Origin: Hyphomicrobiaceae bacterium | GTDB taxonomy: Bacteria > Pseudomonadota > Alphaproteobacteria > Rhizobiales > Hyphomicrobiaceae | Direction of reading: 5' to 3' | Assembly (NCBI GenBank): GCA_022842785.1 | Contig: JALHOW010000009.1 | Location: 1 to 64,000 of the forward strand | Length of the DNA: 64,000 bases | Shown here: positions 19,587-40,807 of the stretch, piece after piece | Position numbering within the stretch: the stretch's first letter is position 1 | How the letters are laid out: each line of letters starts with the position of its first letter | Program-made: the position numbers and the translations under genes | The notes under the pieces: generated by a model | Databases searched by the model: none | What the model was told of the DNA's origin: nothing | The model's input: the letters and a program-made list of their open reading frames with translations, nothing else

Positions 19587-20441
19587 ATGAGCAGCAGTGA
19601 TACGCTTAAGCCCAATGCGGAAGTTCGCGTCGGCGATGTGACATTCAGCGCGCGCCGGCCCATTGCGGTGTTCGCTGGCCCCTGCCAGATGGAGAGCCGC
19701 GCGCACGCGCTCGAGATGGCGACGGCGCTCAAGGAGATTGCCGGCCGCCTCGGCCTCGGGCTCGTCTACAAAACGAGCTTCGACAAGGCGAACCGCACGT
19801 CGCTCTCCGGTAAACGGGGGGTTGGCCTCTCCGCCGCGCTCGACGTATACGCCGAGATCCGTTCGAGCCTCGGTCTCCCGGTGCACACCGACGTGCACGA
19901 CGTGGAGCAGTGCGCGATCCTCGCCGAGGTCGTCGATGTCCTGCAGATTCCGGCCTTCATGTGCCGGCAGACGGACCTGCTCGTCGCCGCGGCGAAGACG
20001 GGGCGCGTGGTCAAGATCAAGAAGGGGCAGTTCCTCGCGCCGTGGGACATGGCGAATGCCGTCGCCAAGATCACGGGCAGCGGCAACCCGAACGTGCTCG
20101 TGACCGAGCGTGGTGCCTCCTTCGGCTACAACACCCTCGTGGTGGACATGCGCAGCTTGCCGATCATGGCGGAGACGGGGGCGCCGGTGATCTTCGACGC
20201 GACGCATTCGGTCCAGCAGCCGGGCGGCAAGGGAACAAGCTCCGGCGGCGACCGCCGCTTCGTGCCCGTTCTCGCGCGTGCGGCGGTGGCAGTCGGTGTC
20301 GCAGGCCTCTTCATCGAGACGCATCAGGATCCCGACAACGCACCGTCCGACGGCCCCAACATGGTGCCGCTCAAGGATTTCGAGCGGCTCATGCGCGAGC
20401 TGATGGAGATAGACGCGGTCGCCAAGCGCCACTCGGCCTGA
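19587..20441 (+). CDS. kdsA: 3-deoxy-8-phosphooctulonate (Kdo-8-P) synthase
   Basis: Condenses PEP with arabinose-5-phosphate to Kdo-8-phosphate for lipopolysaccharide inner core. 284 residues. The block AVFAGPCQMES has cysteine C33 at the metal position, the hallmark of metal-dependent (class II) enzymes; the E. coli enzyme has Asn there. Other motifs: YKTSFDKANRTS, RGASFGYN, FDATHSVQQPGG. Strong RBS (AAGGAGGG) before ATG 19587. It works in the same pathway as kdsD at 27649-28680. No pyrG or eno neighbour is visible. Confidence 0.97.
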   Translation: MSSSDTLKPNAEVRVGDVTFSARRPIAVFAGPCQMESRAHALEMATALKEIAGRLGLGLVYKTSFDKANRTSLSGKRGVGLSAALDVYAEIRSSLGLPVHTDVHDVEQCAILAEVVDVLQIPAFMCRQTDLLVAAAKTGRVVKIKKGQFLAPWDMANAVAKITGSGNPNVLVTERGASFGYNTLVVDMRSLPIMAETGAPVIFDATHSVQQPGGKGTSSGGDRRFVPVLARAAVAVGVAGLFIETHQDPDNAPSDGPNMVPLKDFERLMRELMEIDAVAKRHSA

Positions 20442-20590
20442 GGGCCTGGTAAGTGCGCTTCGCGTGATAAGTCGATCACGGATGACCGCGCGATTGCCTT
20501 GAGAAAGGCCCGGTTTATCGGCATTATTTCCTCGTTCGTTGGCGGACCAATGACTTCATGAGAAGTCCGCCCGTCGGAGGAGAAAACGAA

Positions 20591-21544
20591 ATGTCGAAGC
20601 TCATCAAGGCGCTTGCGGGCGCCGCTACTCTTTTGTTTGCAACGCAAGCTGCCCTCGCCCAGGACGCAGGCACGACCTCGCGCTGGGGCAAGGACGATCA
20701 AGCAGGCGCCTCCAACCTCATGACGCCCAAGAAGGTCATGGAGGCCATGAAGTACATGAAGACCGGCAACGTCATCGCGCTCGGCCGGACGTATGAGGCC
20801 GCCATGCCGCTCTTCGGCGCGCGCGCATTCGCGTTGCGCGGTACCGGCGGGCTCGCCGGCGGCCCCGTGGGTGAGAACAACGTCATCTGGATGGACGACT
20901 TCCTGTCCACCGAGATCGGTCAGGTCGGTACGCAGTTCGACGGTCTCGGCCACATCGGCATTGGCGGGCGCAATGTCTTCTACAATGGCAATTCCGCTCA
21001 GGACATCTTCGGACCGACCGGTCTCAAGCGCTTAGGCATCGAGCATGTGAAGCCATTCTTCACGAAGGGCATCCTGATCGACGCGGCAGCGCATCGCGGC
21101 GCGCCGATGAATGCGGGTGACGAGATTACCGTTGCGGATATCGAAGCAGCCCTCAAGAAGCAGGGCCTGACGGCCGATGCCATCGGTGAGGGCGACGTGG
21201 TGCTGTTCCATACGGGCTGGGCCCGTCACTGGATCAAGGACAATGCCACCTTCAATAGCGGCTGCCCGGGCATTGGTCTCGAGGCGGCGCAGTGGCTGAT
21301 CAAGAAGGGTGTCGCGGTTGTCGGCGCGGATACCTGGCCGGTTGAGGTCATTCCCAATCCGAACGCCAAAGCTGCCTTCCCGGTCCATCAGGAGTTCCTG
21401 GCGAAGAACGGCATCTTCATCCACGAGAATGTCGCGACGGAGCGCCTCGCCGAGGCCAAGGTCTATGAGTTCGCCTACATTTTCGCCCCGCTGCCCATCA
21501 AGGGCGCAACGGGCTCACCCGGAAACCCGATCGCCGTGCACTGA
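20591..21544 (+). CDS. periplasmic cyclase family protein (kynurenine-formamidase-like fold)
   Basis: 317 residues starting at ATG 20591 after GGAGGAG. A signal peptide (MSKLIKALAGAATLLFATQAALAQ) targets it to the periplasm. The mature part is a cyclase-family (PF04199) metal-dependent hydrolase: FDGLGHIGIGGRNVFYN supplies the histidine and acid region, LIDAAAHRG and EGDVVLFHTGW are further family blocks, and GADTWPVEV is near the end. Substrate unknown. Members hydrolyse formylkynurenine, isatin or similar amides. Confidence 0.83.
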   Translation: MSKLIKALAGAATLLFATQAALAQDAGTTSRWGKDDQAGASNLMTPKKVMEAMKYMKTGNVIALGRTYEAAMPLFGARAFALRGTGGLAGGPVGENNVIWMDDFLSTEIGQVGTQFDGLGHIGIGGRNVFYNGNSAQDIFGPTGLKRLGIEHVKPFFTKGILIDAAAHRGAPMNAGDEITVADIEAALKKQGLTADAIGEGDVVLFHTGWARHWIKDNATFNSGCPGIGLEAAQWLIKKGVAVVGADTWPVEVIPNPNAKAAFPVHQEFLAKNGIFIHENVATERLAEAKVYEFAYIFAPLPIKGATGSPGNPIAVH

Positions 21545-21561
21545 GCGCTGTAAACTGTTGA

Positions 21562-21585
21562 GGGCGGCGCCTCGTGGTGCCGCCC
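21562..21585 (+). terminator. stable hairpin after the cyclase gene
   Basis: GGGCGGCGCC (21562-21571) and GGTGCCGCCC (21576-21585) make a 10 bp stem with one G:T pair and a TCGT tetraloop, 17 bases after the cyclase stop. No U-tract follows, so termination may be Rho-assisted or the hairpin may only protect the 3' end. Confidence 0.5.
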
Positions 21586-21647
21586 GATTCGCGCCCCGCC
21601 CTTAGAATCATCTACAACCCTCGGCGTCGGAGTGGGTGGGGGTACGC

Positions 21648-23483
21648 ATGGCACGAGGGGCGCGGGCACGAGTACGCGAAATCGATAGCGATGACGCGCA
21701 GGCATACCTGGGTGTCACCGCCTCCGCCCGCGGCTACACGTGGCGCGAGCGCCTCGCGCCGGGAGCCGCGAATACGGCGATCGCCATCAGCCAGCAGCAC
21801 GGACTTCCCGAACTGCTCGGGCGCGTGCTCGCGGCGCGCGGCATCGGCATCGACGAAGTGCCGACGGTGCTCGAGCCGACCATCCGCGCGCTCATGCCCG
21901 ATCCGAGCACGCTCAATGACATGGACAAGGCCGCGCGTCGGCTCGCGGATGCGGTCGTCAGGCGCGAGCGCGTCGCGGTTTTCGGTGATTACGACGTCGA
22001 TGGCGCGTGCTCGTCCGCACTCATGCGCCGCTTCTTTATGGCTCATGGCCTCGATGCGACGATCTACATTCCCGACCGCATGTTCGAGGGCTACGGTCCG
22101 AACGTGCCGGCGATAAAGGGGCTCGTCGAGAAGGGCGCGCAGCTCATCGTGACCGTGGATTGCGGCACGACGAGCTTCGAGGCACTGGCACCGCAGCATC
22201 GCGGCAAGACCGACGTCCTCATCATCGACCACCATCAGGCCGACGAGCAGCTGCCCGAAGTGAGTGCGGTCGTCAATCCGAACCGACAGGACGATATCTC
22301 CGGGCTCGGACATCTCTGTGCGGCGGGCGTCGTCTTCATGGTGCTCGTCGCGACGACGCGCGAGCTACGCCAGCGCGGCTACTACGACAAGAACGGCCAG
22401 CCGCCCGATCTTCTCTCCATGCTCGATCTGGTCGCGTTGGCGACGGTGTGCGATGTGGTGCCGCTGCAGACGCTCAATCGCGCCTATGTCACGCGCGGCC
22501 TGGAGGTCATGCGCCAGCGCCAGAACATCGGCCTGCGCGCGCTCGTCGATGCGGCGGGCCTCAACCAGCCGCCGACGCCATATCTGCTGGGTTTTGTGCT
22601 TGGGCCGCGCATCAATGCCGGCGGGCGCATCGGCGATGCGGCACTGGGCGCGCGCCTCCTCTCGCTCGACGACGAGACGGAAGCGGCCCGCATTGCCGTG
22701 CAGCTCGACAAGCTCAATCGCGAGCGCAAGACTATCGAGACGCAGATGCTCGAAGAGGCAACGGCGGAAGCCGACCGCCTCATCGACGAGATGCCGGATC
22801 TGCCGATGCTGGTGGTCGCCTCCGAGCGTTGGCACAAGGGCGTCGTTGGGCTCGTCGCGAGCCGTCTTGTCGATCGCTTCGGGCGTCCGGCGTGCGTGAT
22901 TGCTTGGGAAGGTCCTGATCAGGGGACGGGTTCGCTACGCTCCATCGCTGGCGTCGATATCGGATCGGCCGTGCGCGCGGCGGCAGCCGATGGCCTGCTG
23001 CTCAAGGGTGGTGGGCACGCCATGGCGGCGGGCCTCACGGTTGCGCGCGACAAGTTCGAGGCGGCGCGCACATATCTCGCCGAGCAGGTTGCCTCACCCG
23101 CGACGACAGCGCGTGCCGCGCGTGCCCTGGAGATCGACGGTGCACTCACGCCCGCTGCTGCCAACGACACACTCATCGATCTCATCGAGCGCGCGGGACC
23201 TTACGGCCAGGGCAATCCGCAGCCACGTTTTGTCTTCCCCGCGCATCGCGTGCGCTTTGCCAAGGTCATGGGGGAGGCGCATCTGCGCGTGACGCTCGAA
23301 GCCGATGACGGCAGCCGCATCGAGGGCATAGCCTTCCGCGCGGTTGGGCAACCGCTCGGCGAGTTGCTCACGAATACAGGCGGTATGCCGATCCACGTCG
23401 CCGGGAACCTGCGCCGCGATACATGGGGCGGCCGCCAGCGCATTGAGCTGCAGATCGAGGATGCGGCTGATCCGAGAAGGTAA
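21648..23483 (+). CDS. recJ: single-stranded-DNA-specific 5'-3' exonuclease RecJ
   Basis: Recombination/repair nuclease that degrades 5' ends. 611 residues from ATG 21648, with GGTGGGGG upstream. DHH-family motifs are in order: GDYDVDGACSS (motif I), VDCGTTS (II), IIDHHQAD (III, the DHH), then a DHHA1 region with VVASERWHKGVVGLVASRL and LLKGGGHAMAAGL (GGGH motif), and a C-terminal OB-like RecJ_OB region. Length is normal. The TAA stop abuts a long palindrome. Confidence 0.96.
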   Translation: MARGARARVREIDSDDAQAYLGVTASARGYTWRERLAPGAANTAIAISQQHGLPELLGRVLAARGIGIDEVPTVLEPTIRALMPDPSTLNDMDKAARRLADAVVRRERVAVFGDYDVDGACSSALMRRFFMAHGLDATIYIPDRMFEGYGPNVPAIKGLVEKGAQLIVTVDCGTTSFEALAPQHRGKTDVLIIDHHQADEQLPEVSAVVNPNRQDDISGLGHLCAAGVVFMVLVATTRELRQRGYYDKNGQPPDLLSMLDLVALATVCDVVPLQTLNRAYVTRGLEVMRQRQNIGLRALVDAAGLNQPPTPYLLGFVLGPRINAGGRIGDAALGARLLSLDDETEAARIAVQLDKLNRERKTIETQMLEEATAEADRLIDEMPDLPMLVVASERWHKGVVGLVASRLVDRFGRPACVIAWEGPDQGTGSLRSIAGVDIGSAVRAAAADGLLLKGGGHAMAAGLTVARDKFEAARTYLAEQVASPATTARAARALEIDGALTPAAANDTLIDLIERAGPYGQGNPQPRFVFPAHRVRFAKVMGEAHLRVTLEADDGSRIEGIAFRAVGQPLGELLTNTGGMPIHVAGNLRRDTWGGRQRIELQIEDAADPRR

Positions 23484-23715
23484 TTCGCGCCTGCGGCGCG
23501 ACGGGGCTTTCGCCCCTGCCCCGAACCGGGGAGCCCCCGGACCCCCTTCTTTTTTAGACTTGCTTGGACGCGGCACACTCACCTTCTGCCCGTGTTGGAC
23601 GGGGAAAAGGGTCGGTGCATTCGCAGCGGACTCCAAATCCATAAAAGGCGGGGGTTTCGGGGGTGTCGCCCGATCGGGTGCAGGGCTGAGGCCCTGCTCG
23701 CGCCGAAGGCGCGAA
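23484..23715. repeat. ~230-bp imperfect palindromic element filling the recJ-suhB gap
   Basis: No coding sequence. Ends TTCGCGCC (23484) and GGCGCGAA (to 23715) are inverted copies. Moving inward, each arm repeats the same order: a GCGCC/GGCGC mini-hairpin, a GGGC..GCCC hairpin (GGGGCTTTCGCCCC on the left, GCAGGGCCTCAGCCCTGC on the right, read inward), a CCCGAxCGGG block, CCCC tracts and a TTTT run. The arms meet at CTTCTGCCCGT (23583-23593) and ACGGGGAAAAG (23599-23609), with GTTGG between. It begins directly after the recJ stop. Left arm 23526-23555 (CCGGGG-AG-C-CCCCGG, then T6) could end recJ transcripts. Confidence 0.78.
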
Positions 23716-23807
23716 CATAACCGCGACCCGGCCGCCTCTTGTATCTCCGGCCCCCAGGCGGTAGGGGTTCAGCCTTCCATCAGTTCAGGCCAAAAAACCG
23801 AGGCGCC

Positions 23808-24599
23808 ATGCCCGTATCCGCGCTTATGAATGTCATGATCGGGGCTGCCCGCAAGGCCGGGCGCAGCCTCTCGCGCGATTTCGGCGAGGTGTCGCAGCTC
23901 CAGGTCTCGGTCAAGGGCCCGGCGAACTTCGTATCCGCTGCGGACCAGCGCGCCGAAGAGATCGTCTATCGCGAGCTGGCGAAGGCCCGGCAGGGCTACG
24001 GCTTCCTCATGGAGGAGGGCGGCGAGATCGAGGGTGATGACAAGACGCATCGCTGGATCGTCGATCCGCTCGACGGCACGACGAACTTCCTGCATTCGAT
24101 CCCGCTGTTTGCGATCTCGATTGCGCTCGAGCGCGATGGCGAGCTGGTCGCGGGCCTCATCTACAACCCGGTGTCTGACGAGCTCTATACGGCCGAGAAG
24201 GGCAAGGGCGCGTTCCTGAATGACAGGCGGCTTCGCGTGGCCGCGCGCAAGTCGCTGCAGGACAGCGTGCTAGGGACTGGTATCCCATTCCGCGGGCGCG
24301 GCGGGTATGAGCGCTACGAGCGTGAGACGCGGCCGCTCATGCGCGAAGTCGCCGGTATCAGGCGCACGGGCGCGGCGTCCGTCGACCTTGCCTGGACGGC
24401 TGCCGGACGCTTTGACGGCTACTGGGAGCACGATCTGCAACCTTGGGATATTGCCGCAGGCATCGTTATCCTGAGAGAGGCGGGCGGCATCGCAACAGAC
24501 ATTGCCGGTGGCGAGGAGATGCTCGACAAGGGCAGCATTGTTGCGGGCAATCCGACGATCCATAAGTTGCTGCTGGGGGCGCTCCAGAAGGCGTCGTGA
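23808..24599 (+). CDS. suhB: inositol monophosphatase family protein (SuhB-like)
   Basis: 263 residues from ATG 23808. Li-sensitive phosphatase motifs: motif A FLMEEGG (E70) with IVDPLDGTTNF (D86, D89) for metal binding, and motif B WEHDLQPWDIAAG for the third metal. Hydrolyses inositol-1-phosphate and related sugar phosphates; in proteobacteria SuhB also associates with transcription antitermination complexes. Stand-alone gene preceded by the palindromic element; no strong RBS is seen (GAGGCGCC). Confidence 0.9.
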   Translation: MPVSALMNVMIGAARKAGRSLSRDFGEVSQLQVSVKGPANFVSAADQRAEEIVYRELAKARQGYGFLMEEGGEIEGDDKTHRWIVDPLDGTTNFLHSIPLFAISIALERDGELVAGLIYNPVSDELYTAEKGKGAFLNDRRLRVAARKSLQDSVLGTGIPFRGRGGYERYERETRPLMREVAGIRRTGAASVDLAWTAAGRFDGYWEHDLQPWDIAAGIVILREAGGIATDIAGGEEMLDKGSIVAGNPTIHKLLLGALQKAS

Positions 24600-24772
24600 T
24601 CGCGTGGTTCTCGATGCCTTCGAATTGCCATGACTGGACAGTTGTGATTTTCGCCACAGTCCCTGGTTGTTTTGCCACGATCATCGGGTAGTGTTTGCTG
24701 CACTGCGTGCCGACTGCCGCGTTCCACGGCGGCTCTGTGACGTGTGGCTGAGGTGTGAGGCGGAGTTGAGCA

Positions 24773-25813
24773 ATGGCGAGAGGAACGCGGCCGACTGAGC
24801 TGGCGTCCAGACGGCTGCACCGAACGCTCAATACGCCGGGGCCATTCCTCCGCGGCATGTTGGTCTTCGTGGTGATCGTCGGCCTGTGCGGCGCCATTCT
24901 CTACCAGCAGATCCAGCACGCCTTCTGGGCGAACCCGGTGCTCAATGGGTTCATTCTTGCGGTGCTCGGCATCGGCATCTTGCGCGCCTTCGGGCAGGTG
25001 ATCCGCCTCTATCCCGAGATCCGCTGGGTGAATGCGTTCCGCATTGCCGATCCGGGCCTCGCCATCGAGCACAAGCCAGTGCTGCTGGCGCCGATGGCGA
25101 CCATGCTGCGCGATCGCACGGGGCATCTCTCGCTTTCGACCTCGTCGATGCGCTCGATCATGGATTCGATCGGCGGGCGCCTCGATGAAGCGCGCGATAC
25201 CGGCCGCTATCTCGTCGGCCTTCTGGTTTTCCTCGGGCTGCTCGGCACGTTCTGGGGCCTTCTCGACACGATCAATTCGGTCGGCAACACTATCAACTCG
25301 CTCGACACGAAGGGCAGCGACAGCGTGCTCATGTTCGAGGAGCTGAAATCGGGACTGTCCGGTCCGCTACGCGGCATGGGCACGGCCTTCTCGTCATCGC
25401 TGATGGGTCTCGGTGGGTCGCTGGTGCTCGGCTTTCTCGATCTGCAGTCGAGTCACGCGCACAACCGCTTCTACAACGAGCTCGAGGAATGGCTCTCCGG
25501 CATTACGGAGCTGACGCCGGGTGGTGAGCAGAATGGCGAGGTCGGCCAGCAGATCTACGGCGCTCTGTTCGAAGTCCAGCGCACGATCGCCGAGCTTTCC
25601 GATCGCATTCATATGATCGGGTCTTCGGGCGGCCAGGGCGCGGAGAGCATGCGCGAGGTCGGGCGCGGCCTGCAGGAGGTCGTTGTCCAGATGCGGGCCG
25701 AGCAGAAGATCGTGCGCGAGTGGGTCGACGAGCAGGCGGCGCGTCAGTCTGAGATGACGTCGGCGCTGCGCGATCTCTCAGGTCGCGGCGGCGGATCACG
25801 GCGAGGTAGCTAG
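24773..25813 (+). CDS. MotA/TolQ/ExbB-type proton-channel family protein
   Basis: 346 residues. N-terminal membrane helices MLVFVVIVGLCGAILY (about residues 29-44) and GFILAVLGIGILRAF, then a cytoplasmic stretch and the conserved channel helix RYLVGLLVFLGLLGTFWGLLDTI (residue ~143 onward), and a second pore-region helix (FSSSLMGLGGSLVLGFLDL). The C terminus is helical. It likely forms the stator pore with the OmpA-domain protein encoded three bases downstream; the pair uses ion flow to act on the cell wall or envelope (inferred from the family). No flagellar genes are nearby, so a motility role is not supported. Confidence 0.85.
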   Translation: MARGTRPTELASRRLHRTLNTPGPFLRGMLVFVVIVGLCGAILYQQIQHAFWANPVLNGFILAVLGIGILRAFGQVIRLYPEIRWVNAFRIADPGLAIEHKPVLLAPMATMLRDRTGHLSLSTSSMRSIMDSIGGRLDEARDTGRYLVGLLVFLGLLGTFWGLLDTINSVGNTINSLDTKGSDSVLMFEELKSGLSGPLRGMGTAFSSSLMGLGGSLVLGFLDLQSSHAHNRFYNELEEWLSGITELTPGGEQNGEVGQQIYGALFEVQRTIAELSDRIHMIGSSGGQGAESMREVGRGLQEVVVQMRAEQKIVREWVDEQAARQSEMTSALRDLSGRGGGSRRGS

Positions 25814-25816
25814 TCT

Positions 25817-26845
25817 ATGGCGGGCTCGCGCTCACGGCGTTCGAACGAGTACGGCGAGTTCTGGCCGGGTTACGTCGATGTCATGTCGACGCTGCTTCTG
25901 ACGTTCGTGTTCCTGCTCTCGCTGTTCATGCTCGCCCAGTTCTTTGTGAGCCAGGAGTCGGGCCGCAAGGATACCGCCCTCGGAAAGCTGAACCTCCAGA
26001 TCGCTGAACTCACGAGCCTGCTCTCGCTCGAAAAGGGCAAGAGTCGTTCGCTCGAGGACGAACTCGCTTCTATCCAGGCGACCCTCGCGTCGGCACGCGC
26101 AGAGAGTGCGCGCCTGTCCGGCCTTGCAGGGCTCGATGCAGAGCGCGCCGGGGCAGCCGAGGCGCGGAGCCTCGGCCTGACAAAAGAGCTCGAAGGTCAG
26201 AAGGAAATTTCGAGCGAGGCCCTTGCCAAGGTTGACCTCCTTAATCAGCAGCTGCTTGCGCTGCGCCGCCAGATTGCGGCGCTCAACGAGGCGCTGGCCG
26301 CGGCCGAATCCAAGGACAAGGATTCGCAGGCGCGGATCTCGGATCTGGGTGCGCGGCTCAATGTCGTGCTCGCCCGGCAGGTGCAGGAGCTGCAGCGCTA
26401 TCGTTCGGATTTCTTCGGTCGCCTGCGGGAGCTGCTGAGGGATCGCAAGGATATCCGCATTGTCGGCGACCGCTTTGTCTTCCAGTCGGAGGTGCTCTTT
26501 CCTTCCGGCCAGGCGACCATGACGCCGGAAGGTCTGGCGGCGATCGACCAGCTGGCGGCGGCCATCGTCGAACTCGAGCGGCAGATCCCGAAGGAGATCG
26601 GCTGGGCCCTGCAGGTGGATGGGCATACGGATGCGCGCCCCATCGCGAGCAGTGCATTTCCGTCGAACTGGGAGCTGTCCAGTGCGCGTGCGATCAGCGT
26701 CGTGAAGTACCTGATCAGCCGGGGTGTGCCGCCCAACCGCCTCGTGGCGGCGGGCTATGGCGAGTTCGCGCCTCTCGAAGACGGGGCAAGCGACGAGGTA
26801 TTGCGCCGAAATCGCCGTATTGAGCTCAAACTGACAAACCGTTGA
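25817..26845 (+). CDS. MotB-like OmpA-domain peptidoglycan-binding protein
   Basis: 342 residues. A short cytoplasmic N terminus, one membrane helix beginning YVDVMSTLLLTFVFLLSLF with D21 at the position of the proton-carrying Asp of MotB, a long coiled coil (about 50-190), and a C-terminal OmpA/MotB domain with ALQVDGHTDARPI and SSARAISVVKYLISRGV, the peptidoglycan-binding core. ATG at 25817 follows the MotA/ExbB-like stop by three bases, so the two form one unit. The long coiled coil is longer than in flagellar MotB and suggests a periplasmic rod between membrane and wall. Confidence 0.87.
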   Translation: MAGSRSRRSNEYGEFWPGYVDVMSTLLLTFVFLLSLFMLAQFFVSQESGRKDTALGKLNLQIAELTSLLSLEKGKSRSLEDELASIQATLASARAESARLSGLAGLDAERAGAAEARSLGLTKELEGQKEISSEALAKVDLLNQQLLALRRQIAALNEALAAAESKDKDSQARISDLGARLNVVLARQVQELQRYRSDFFGRLRELLRDRKDIRIVGDRFVFQSEVLFPSGQATMTPEGLAAIDQLAAAIVELERQIPKEIGWALQVDGHTDARPIASSAFPSNWELSSARAISVVKYLISRGVPPNRLVAAGYGEFAPLEDGASDEVLRRNRRIELKLTNR

Positions 26846-40667: not shown

Positions 40668-40807
40668 CCCCTCTCCCCGCACTTGCGGGGAGAGGGTTAG
40701 GTGAGGGGCGGCGGCATACGCCAATGTCGCGCGCGTGGCCGCCCCTCATCCCGACCTTCTCGTCGCGCCAGAGGCGCGCTTCCAGCGCGACAAGCACGGG
40801 GAGAAGG
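40668..40807. repeat. palindromic intergenic repeat element upstream of hisD
   Basis: Three successive stems. CCCTCTCCCCGC (40669-40680) pairs with GCGGGGAGAGGG (40685-40696), 12 bp perfect. TGAGGGGCGGC (40702-40712) pairs with GCCGCCCCTCA (40738-40748). CCTTCTC+GTCGCGC (40755-40768) pairs with GCGCGAC (40785-40791) and GAGAAGG (40801-40807) with an internal bulge. This GC-palindrome-plus-TTAGGTGAGGGG layout resembles repeat families scattered in rhizobial genomes; only this copy is seen here. Confidence 0.82.

Follow-up and report, generated by a model that had tools for sequence, protein, structure and literature searches.

Between recJ and the following suhB-like gene, the window (the whole 64,000-nt stretch of DNA analysed) holds a palindrome of ~230 bp, and the question raised by this locus is what kind of element sits so close behind a gene. 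An earlier note placed the palindrome at 23484–23715, with ends TTCGCGCC / GGCGCGAA and a meeting point CTTCTGCCCGT, GTTGG, ACGGGGAAAAG, all of which are present in the sequence. It was also said to begin directly after the recJ stop codon, as is the case: the TAA occupies 23481–23483 and is followed at once by TTCGCGCC, which leaves 1 nt between the stop and hairpin H3 of the left unit. The explanation that we favor, with a probability of roughly 70%, is that the palindrome is a REP/BIME-type 3'-end repeat of Hyphomicrobium and its kin, copied between gene ends without a RAYT. The features referred to below are as follows.

21636..23483, + strand: recJ (615 aa), the upstream gene; RecJ relatives found by sequence
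23484..23715, no strand assigned: whole element, two inverted copies of unit U flanking a core; from sequence, arm comparison, fold and covariance model
23485..23560, - strand: left unit U, in the order H3, H2, H1, C-run, T-run from recJ; covariance model R1, 73.6 bits (both units behind recJ belong to the 36 sequences that built R1)
23485..23501, + strand: H3 of the left unit, TCGCGCC TGC GGCGCGA; from sequence
23526..23540, + strand: H1 of the left unit, CCGGGG AGC CCCCGG; from sequence
23542..23555, + strand: C-run and T-run CCCCCTTCTTTTTT behind H1, which complements the conserved A-rich block of U
23582..23611, + strand: probable decayed S1 arm, CCTTCTGCCCGT-GTTGG-ACGGGGAAAAGGG, in the core of the element; by eye
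23635..23714, + strand: right unit U, with A-rich block, H1 (23657–23673), H2 (23680–23697) and H3 (23698–23714); R1, 89.2 bits for 23636–23714
23739..24599, + strand: suhB-like gene, downstream, with a listed start TTG at 23739

Structure of the element and of its unit

The halves of the 232-nt palindrome were found separately elsewhere in the same genome, and a repeat unit, U, was therefore defined. The element between recJ and the suhB-like gene comprises two inverted 79-nt units U, each with three hairpins, and a core of 74 nt. The two inverted copies described earlier thus stand as inverted units, but the copies are confined to 23485–23560 and ~23635–23714, and the 74-nt centre lies outside the unit. 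The inverted arms 23484–23530 and 23669–23715 are 72% complementary over 47 nt. Folding of the transcript, a check that the earlier note had proposed, gave -144.2 kcal/mol for 23480–23720 against a mean of -104.8 (S.D. 5.6) for 200 shuffles, none of which was as good (z = -7.0). For the parts, z was -0.43 for the left H2-H1-T-run segment, which is no more stable than its shuffles, -2.17 for the whole left unit and -3.38 for the right unit. No Rfam family matched positions 21000–26000 up to an E value of 1. Among the 20 of 65 plasmid matches listed for positions 20000–26000, none covered the recJ–suhB gap; those listed correspond to recJ, the suhB-like gene, kdsA or an ORF near 21 kb.

Read from the gene that it abuts, U consists of H3 (TCGCGCC-NNN-GGCGCGA), H2, H1 (CGGGGG-ACA-CCCCCG), a C-run and CTTTTAT. 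H2 is a stem that switches type, with GGGGC/GCCCC, AGGGC/GCCCT and GCGAGG/CCTCGC among its forms. Across 36 aligned units the T-run is conserved, appearing as the A-rich block on the other strand, and the loops and linkers are also common to the copies (consensus GGTTCGGGGGTGTCCCCCGATCGGGG). In this alignment 97.6% of 741 stem cells are paired and both sides have changed in 10 of the 21 pairs, counts that are biased towards the structure drawn because the units were taken from BLAST matches and the structure from their consensus. Slid structures were 42–52% paired, and none of 500 shuffles scored as high. U is thus a unit of ~79 nt with three GC-rich hairpins maintained by compensatory change.

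Copies at gene ends and their possible turnover between species

The earlier note had suggested a BLASTN search of the genome, and this returned 49 matches to the 232-nt element (the query's own position, and certain sites matched on both strands, being counted). The covariance model identified at least 126 units, the weakest at ~25 bits; this number is a lower bound, since 150 of 4901 candidates were scored. So many copies rule out a solitary cruciform or a single ancient structure, and the earlier proviso that the element might have no other copies and be unchanged in relatives has fallen away: copies are many and the sister species differ. At E ≤ 1e-4 the model matches 33 of 103 genomes from the family, the own genome being one of them, and these span 15 of 25 genera; outside the family but within the same order, BLAST yields one weak match among 24 genomes. 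The 899-kb contig C2 of the own genome carries 3 of the 126 units, against ~23 expected by length. Rfam searches at 20 loci gave a single match at gathering score, the suhB/mmgR sRNA RF00519 (L018, 1920–1997). It lies away from the repeat but near another U copy, on contig C9 of the own genome at ~78.6 kb, and not beside the suhB-like gene of the window.

Units were grouped into 84 elements in the own genome: 47 single units, 22 pairs with H3 outward, 14 pairs with H3 inward and 1 other, or 48 single and 13 inward after correction of locus L050, where the second match is the same unit in reverse reading. H3-outward pairs share the build of the element behind recJ, with spacers that reach 193 nt and, at the other extreme, give way to an overlap of 5 nt, and H3-inward pairs touch or overlap at H3. 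By gene borders drawn with a purpose-built codon-score caller rather than taken from annotation, convergent genes flank 40 elements, tandem genes 31 and divergent genes 2, and 5 elements fall in a called ORF; 79 of 84 are therefore outside called ORFs, including 6 whose context could not be assigned. A gene between U copies was considered as an autonomous partner and rejected. At L170 and L023, inverted units enclose 1.04 and 0.47 kb, and the enclosed ORFs, by eye, suggest a membrane protein and a thioesterase-like gene of an ordinary kind.

The units tend to approach stop codons with one particular end. The H3 end lies 0–9 nt from the stop codon that it faces at 40 of 57 own ends, against 9 of 57 for the opposite end (p = 5e-9), and in relatives at 23 of 39 against 2 of 21 ends (p = 2.5e-4); adjacent units, like related copies, do not count as independent observations here. 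The opposite end has 12 further cases in which a called ORF ends 2–12 nt inside the element, which at L040 is, by eye, the TAA of CATAAAAG. In tandem contexts, such as recJ–suhB, there is no stop codon for the second unit to face. Units thus tend to have their outer hairpin within a few nucleotides of a stop codon, in many cases where two genes converge.

Judged by RecJ, Hyphomicrobium sp. CS1BSMeth3 (L055), MAG KLAP182 (L056) and MAG Bin_29_2 (L099) come closest among the named relatives, at 93–95% identity. The ATG at 23808 in the suhB-like gene is preserved in the first two, and also in the third with one change before it. All three share the recJ–suhB gap, and in each it reads U'-spacer-U with a different spacer: an intact S1 pair (see below) in two and a short spacer in one. 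The gap of KLAP182 contains CCTTCTCCCCGT..ACGGGGAGAAGGG. Comparison of this interval between sisters, as had been suggested, found an element kept behind recJ with other spacers inside it. No target duplication came to light in the analysis. Twelve more distant RecJ loci, of 15 gaps inspected from 80 loci, have other neighbors and no U by eye.

At shared gene ends, the relatives' units, chosen as top model matches, were compared with those of the own genome. The unit at the orthologous end ranked first among 121 own units in 4 of 34 comparisons, or 4 of 30 once repeated rows are removed, and the best unit at another site had an identity of 0.90–0.96 in 20 of 34; because a best-of-120 search against one ortholog favors paralogs, these figures are a lead to exchange and not proof of it. 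Two sites were followed in the own genome and in relatives G002, G003 and G004, the flanks in G001 being on different contigs. At L031, U is present in the own genome and in G002 and absent from G003 and G004, in which the two stop codons have only a short H3-like palindrome between them; inspection by eye gave no sign of a target duplication. At L142, the own genome has U and a further repeat, S2; G002 and G004 have instead S1-DUF559-S1 with H3-like ends, and G003 has other content and no U. Since H3 is palindromic, any two H3s are also direct repeats, and the solo H3 of the empty site is what a deletion between them would leave behind. In the compared shared gene ends, sister species have different units and spacers.

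For site L177 of G002, the own genome has no flank match, and in G004 the flanks are 1.3 kb apart with no BLAST unit match between them. At L185, L203 and L197 (G002/G004), each locus joins the flanks of two different own elements, so that rearrangement junctions coincide with repeats; these junctions were found because the loci were centred on elements.

These comparisons bear on three other explanations of U. An ordinary MITE, in which the U hairpins are terminal inverted repeats moved by a lost or distant transposase, would account for the many copies, the inverted ends of pairs and the presence or absence at L031. As to inverted ends shared with an autonomous transposon, the S1-DUF559-S1 arrangement at L142 in G002 and G004 has H3-like ends but holds U itself only as weak remnants. 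Against it stand the 47 single units among 84 elements, the varied spacers and the tight abutment of copies to stop codons. Nor does H3 behave as a target duplication: same-direction identity was 0.578 within elements and 0.576 between elements (22 pairs). The earlier proposal of a MITE-like mobile repeat therefore survives as far as dispersal is concerned, but its MITE part is not established, and we regard a MITE as unlikely.

Origin in situ as intrinsic bidirectional terminators, with their likeness due to shared constraint, would fit the frequent convergent location, the hairpins and an A-rich block that is a T-run when read from the gene. Shared constraint of this kind is at odds with the likeness of loops and linkers and with best cross-species matches that are often non-orthologous. 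A simple terminator scan of the element behind recJ found no terminator inside it, and the T-run of the left unit starts 9 nt past H1 (first TT at 6 nt), a spacing that argues against a strong intrinsic terminator. Independent origin as terminators is accordingly given still less weight than a MITE.

A classical RAYT-driven REP/REPIN system is the least probable of the three, very improbable in our estimate, in spite of the resemblance of U to BIMEs in architecture and location. No match to Y1_Tnp (PF01797) was found in the own genome or in G001–G004, G001 being 87% complete, in a search that did pick up the family in 5 of 14 control genomes, including E. coli; a RAYT would have to have been lost recently or to lie in an assembly gap. 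By eye, the bases adjoining H3 differ between units, and a constant GTAG beside it is absent.

The core, the S1 repeat and DUF559 genes

The 74 nt between the two units behind recJ look, by eye, like a decayed arm of a second repeat, S1. Among 121 own units, S1 adjoins the A-rich end of U at 12 and S2 at 16 (28 of 121 together); random stretches of the window gave 7 of 2000 for each repeat. Among the relatives' units, S1 adjoins 39 of 76. An S1 pair is also found elsewhere in the window.

40669..40807, no strand assigned: S1 inverted pair, with no DUF559 gene inside

The right hairpin of this pair contains a nested palindrome, GTCGCGCC..GGCGCGCTTCCAGCGCGAC, that is also found in L019, L026, L184 and L229. 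The third repeat, S2 (GCCGCGGGCTGCTGGGA...), has many matches in the genus and occurs at the spacer start of L229, at ~910–1005 of L031 and at 1088–1172 of L142; in L229 and L031 it begins, by eye, directly behind a stop codon.

The ORF between the S1 arms at L142 in G004 is a DUF559 protein (E = 3.8e-31), and it is related to 3hrl, an endonuclease-like protein of solved structure (E = 1.2e-16). To our knowledge, DUF559 is not a known transposase. Four of the five genomes of the genus carry such genes, five in all, and one extra weak match is Vsr. At L242, in the own genome, a true Vsr-like gene is followed by what appears by eye to be the start of a cytosine methylase. S1 arms flank all five genus DUF559 genes on both sides, with an inward-facing arm on each side in four (L238–L241) and an outward-facing right arm in L237. 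Near these genes U is absent (L237–L239) or left as weak remnants of 19–22 bits (L240 and L241).

Across the Alphaproteobacteria, matches to PF04480 were found in 64 of 190 genomes, with E < 1e-20 in 47. Inverted arms were scored at 35 DUF559 loci, the 5 of the genus and the 30 best-scoring of the class: 19 score ≥20 and 27 score ≥13, and 16 stay below 20. A score of ≥20 was reached by none of 55 RecJ genes, 217 gaps around recJ and 134 shifted gaps of the same loci, so that strong inverted arms occur at 19 of 35 DUF559 loci and in 0 of 406 control gaps; 8 of the 134 shifted gaps reach 13. Pairing arms across loci is a stricter control, since S1 arms are alike between genomes; here the 95th percentile was 19 and the maximum 27, which 9 of the 35 loci exceed. 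Many arms share one plan, hairpin-NN-RGGG-tract (25 of 51 arms aligned), and residues D52, E63 and D65 do not vary among the loci aligned for the protein, 28 of 35.

An S1-like pattern (net ≥5) occurs in 22 of 47 strong-DUF559 genomes and in 4 of the 143 others (p = 3.5e-12), low counts being partly circular because the pattern was derived from arms beside DUF559. The association was checked within two size classes (19 of 35 against 2 of 45 for genomes of ≥3 Mb; 3 of 12 against 2 of 98 for smaller ones), and base composition and descent may still contribute to it. Of the 47 DUF559 genomes, 15 show no such pattern; in turn, net ≥5 is reached in 4 genomes that have no strong DUF559, a weak one being present in one of them.

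These observations allow a different account, in which DUF559 would spread S1-type repeats, including the probable remnant in the core of the recJ element, by hairpin cutting and repair copying in a homing-like manner, with U riding along as U'-S1-S1'-U composites. The arms at all five genus genes, the contrast with control gaps, the shared pattern and the invariant acidic residues speak for it. The outward arm of L237, the scores attained by cross-locus pairs, the loci and genomes on either side without the expected partner, and the near absence of U beside genus DUF559 genes speak against it. We consider this account possible but doubtful as an explanation of the element. The wider proposal, that DUF559, a Vsr-like PD-(D/E)XK nuclease, drives a large RAYT-independent REP-like class (hairpin plus GGGTGAGGGG-type tract) across the Alphaproteobacteria, is put forward with the same reserve, as tentative. 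The nuclease would cut extruded hairpins, and repair would copy repeats from site to site; if true, this would explain the changing 3' cassettes at orthologous gene ends, such as that behind recJ. As the nuclease gene often lies between inverted repeat copies, with loose copies in the same genomes, it is a concrete and testable candidate for a mover. By title and abstract, no paper was found that links DUF559 with palindromes or REPs, and such a link may exist in print. A Caulobacter DUF559 protein is called Vsr-like (PMC12907096) and Legionella segments with transposase and DUF559 are reported as recombination hot spots (PMC12308824).

Possible function and comparison with known repeats

Returning to a REP/BIME-type 3'-end repeat as the preferred reading, our best guess is that U would act as an mRNA 3'-end structure, and a role at the level of the transcript is plausible from its stop-codon position and compensated stems. 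In the recJ mRNA, the hairpins would form directly behind the stop codon and serve as such a structure. They may block 3' exonucleases and attenuate read-through into suhB, or they may slow ribosome release, as reported for E. coli REPs ≤15 nt from a stop codon. The U copies would be non-autonomous and would arrive, or be swapped, by ectopic copying between repeats, whether transposition-like or by gene conversion; selection would tolerate a copied U mainly at gene ends, and a RAYT would play no part in the spread. Points against this reading are the negative terminator scan, the T-run that starts 9 nt past H1, the poor fold of the left H2-H1-T-run segment and, in tandem contexts, a second unit with no stop codon before it. 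If units are swapped at fixed gene ends, repeats can rewire bacterial 3' ends faster than the genes served evolve.

U can be likened, by description only, to RIME and Rhizobium mosaic elements, RIME being palindromic intergenic mosaic elements of alphaproteobacteria. Like U, the BIME/REP elements of E. coli have alternating palindromic units and linkers, many copies and a location outside genes (PMC2817692). E. coli REPs are reported to stall ribosomes when ≤15 nt from the stop codon (PMC12306157 and PMC5082802), and protection of upstream mRNA has likewise been reported. An E. coli REP is one palindrome of 20–40 nt, whereas U has 79 nt and three hairpins, and no RAYT was found in the genus of U (own genome and G001–G004). 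The consensus printed for Br-REP1 of Bradyrhizobium japonicum (PMC5082802), CCGGAATCTCGAGATTCCGG, is absent by eye from the U consensus.

CGTC repeats are reported mostly from alphaproteobacteria, without a transposase (PMC3733652); they have a single stem of 8–9 bp with an unpaired CGTC at one end, unlike the three-hairpin U. Some palindromic repeats, the CGTC class among them, have thus been reported without a mover. The CGTC found in U is the complement of GACG in AAAAGACGGGGG, and a G-run separates it from H1. The TIRtron TIR motif GGGGWSAS resembles GGGGAGAG of the S1 arms (PMC3733652), but TIRtrons carry a tyrosine transposase where S1 loci have a DUF559 gene. Taken together, the mosaic build and 3'-end location of U fit BIME/REP better than MITE, and the U family, as judged from its sequence, is new but of a known, REP/BIME-like kind. 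What is unusual in it is the three-hairpin unit, the tight fit to stop codons, the missing RAYT and the changing tenants, and the link to DUF559 is the part that could be new.
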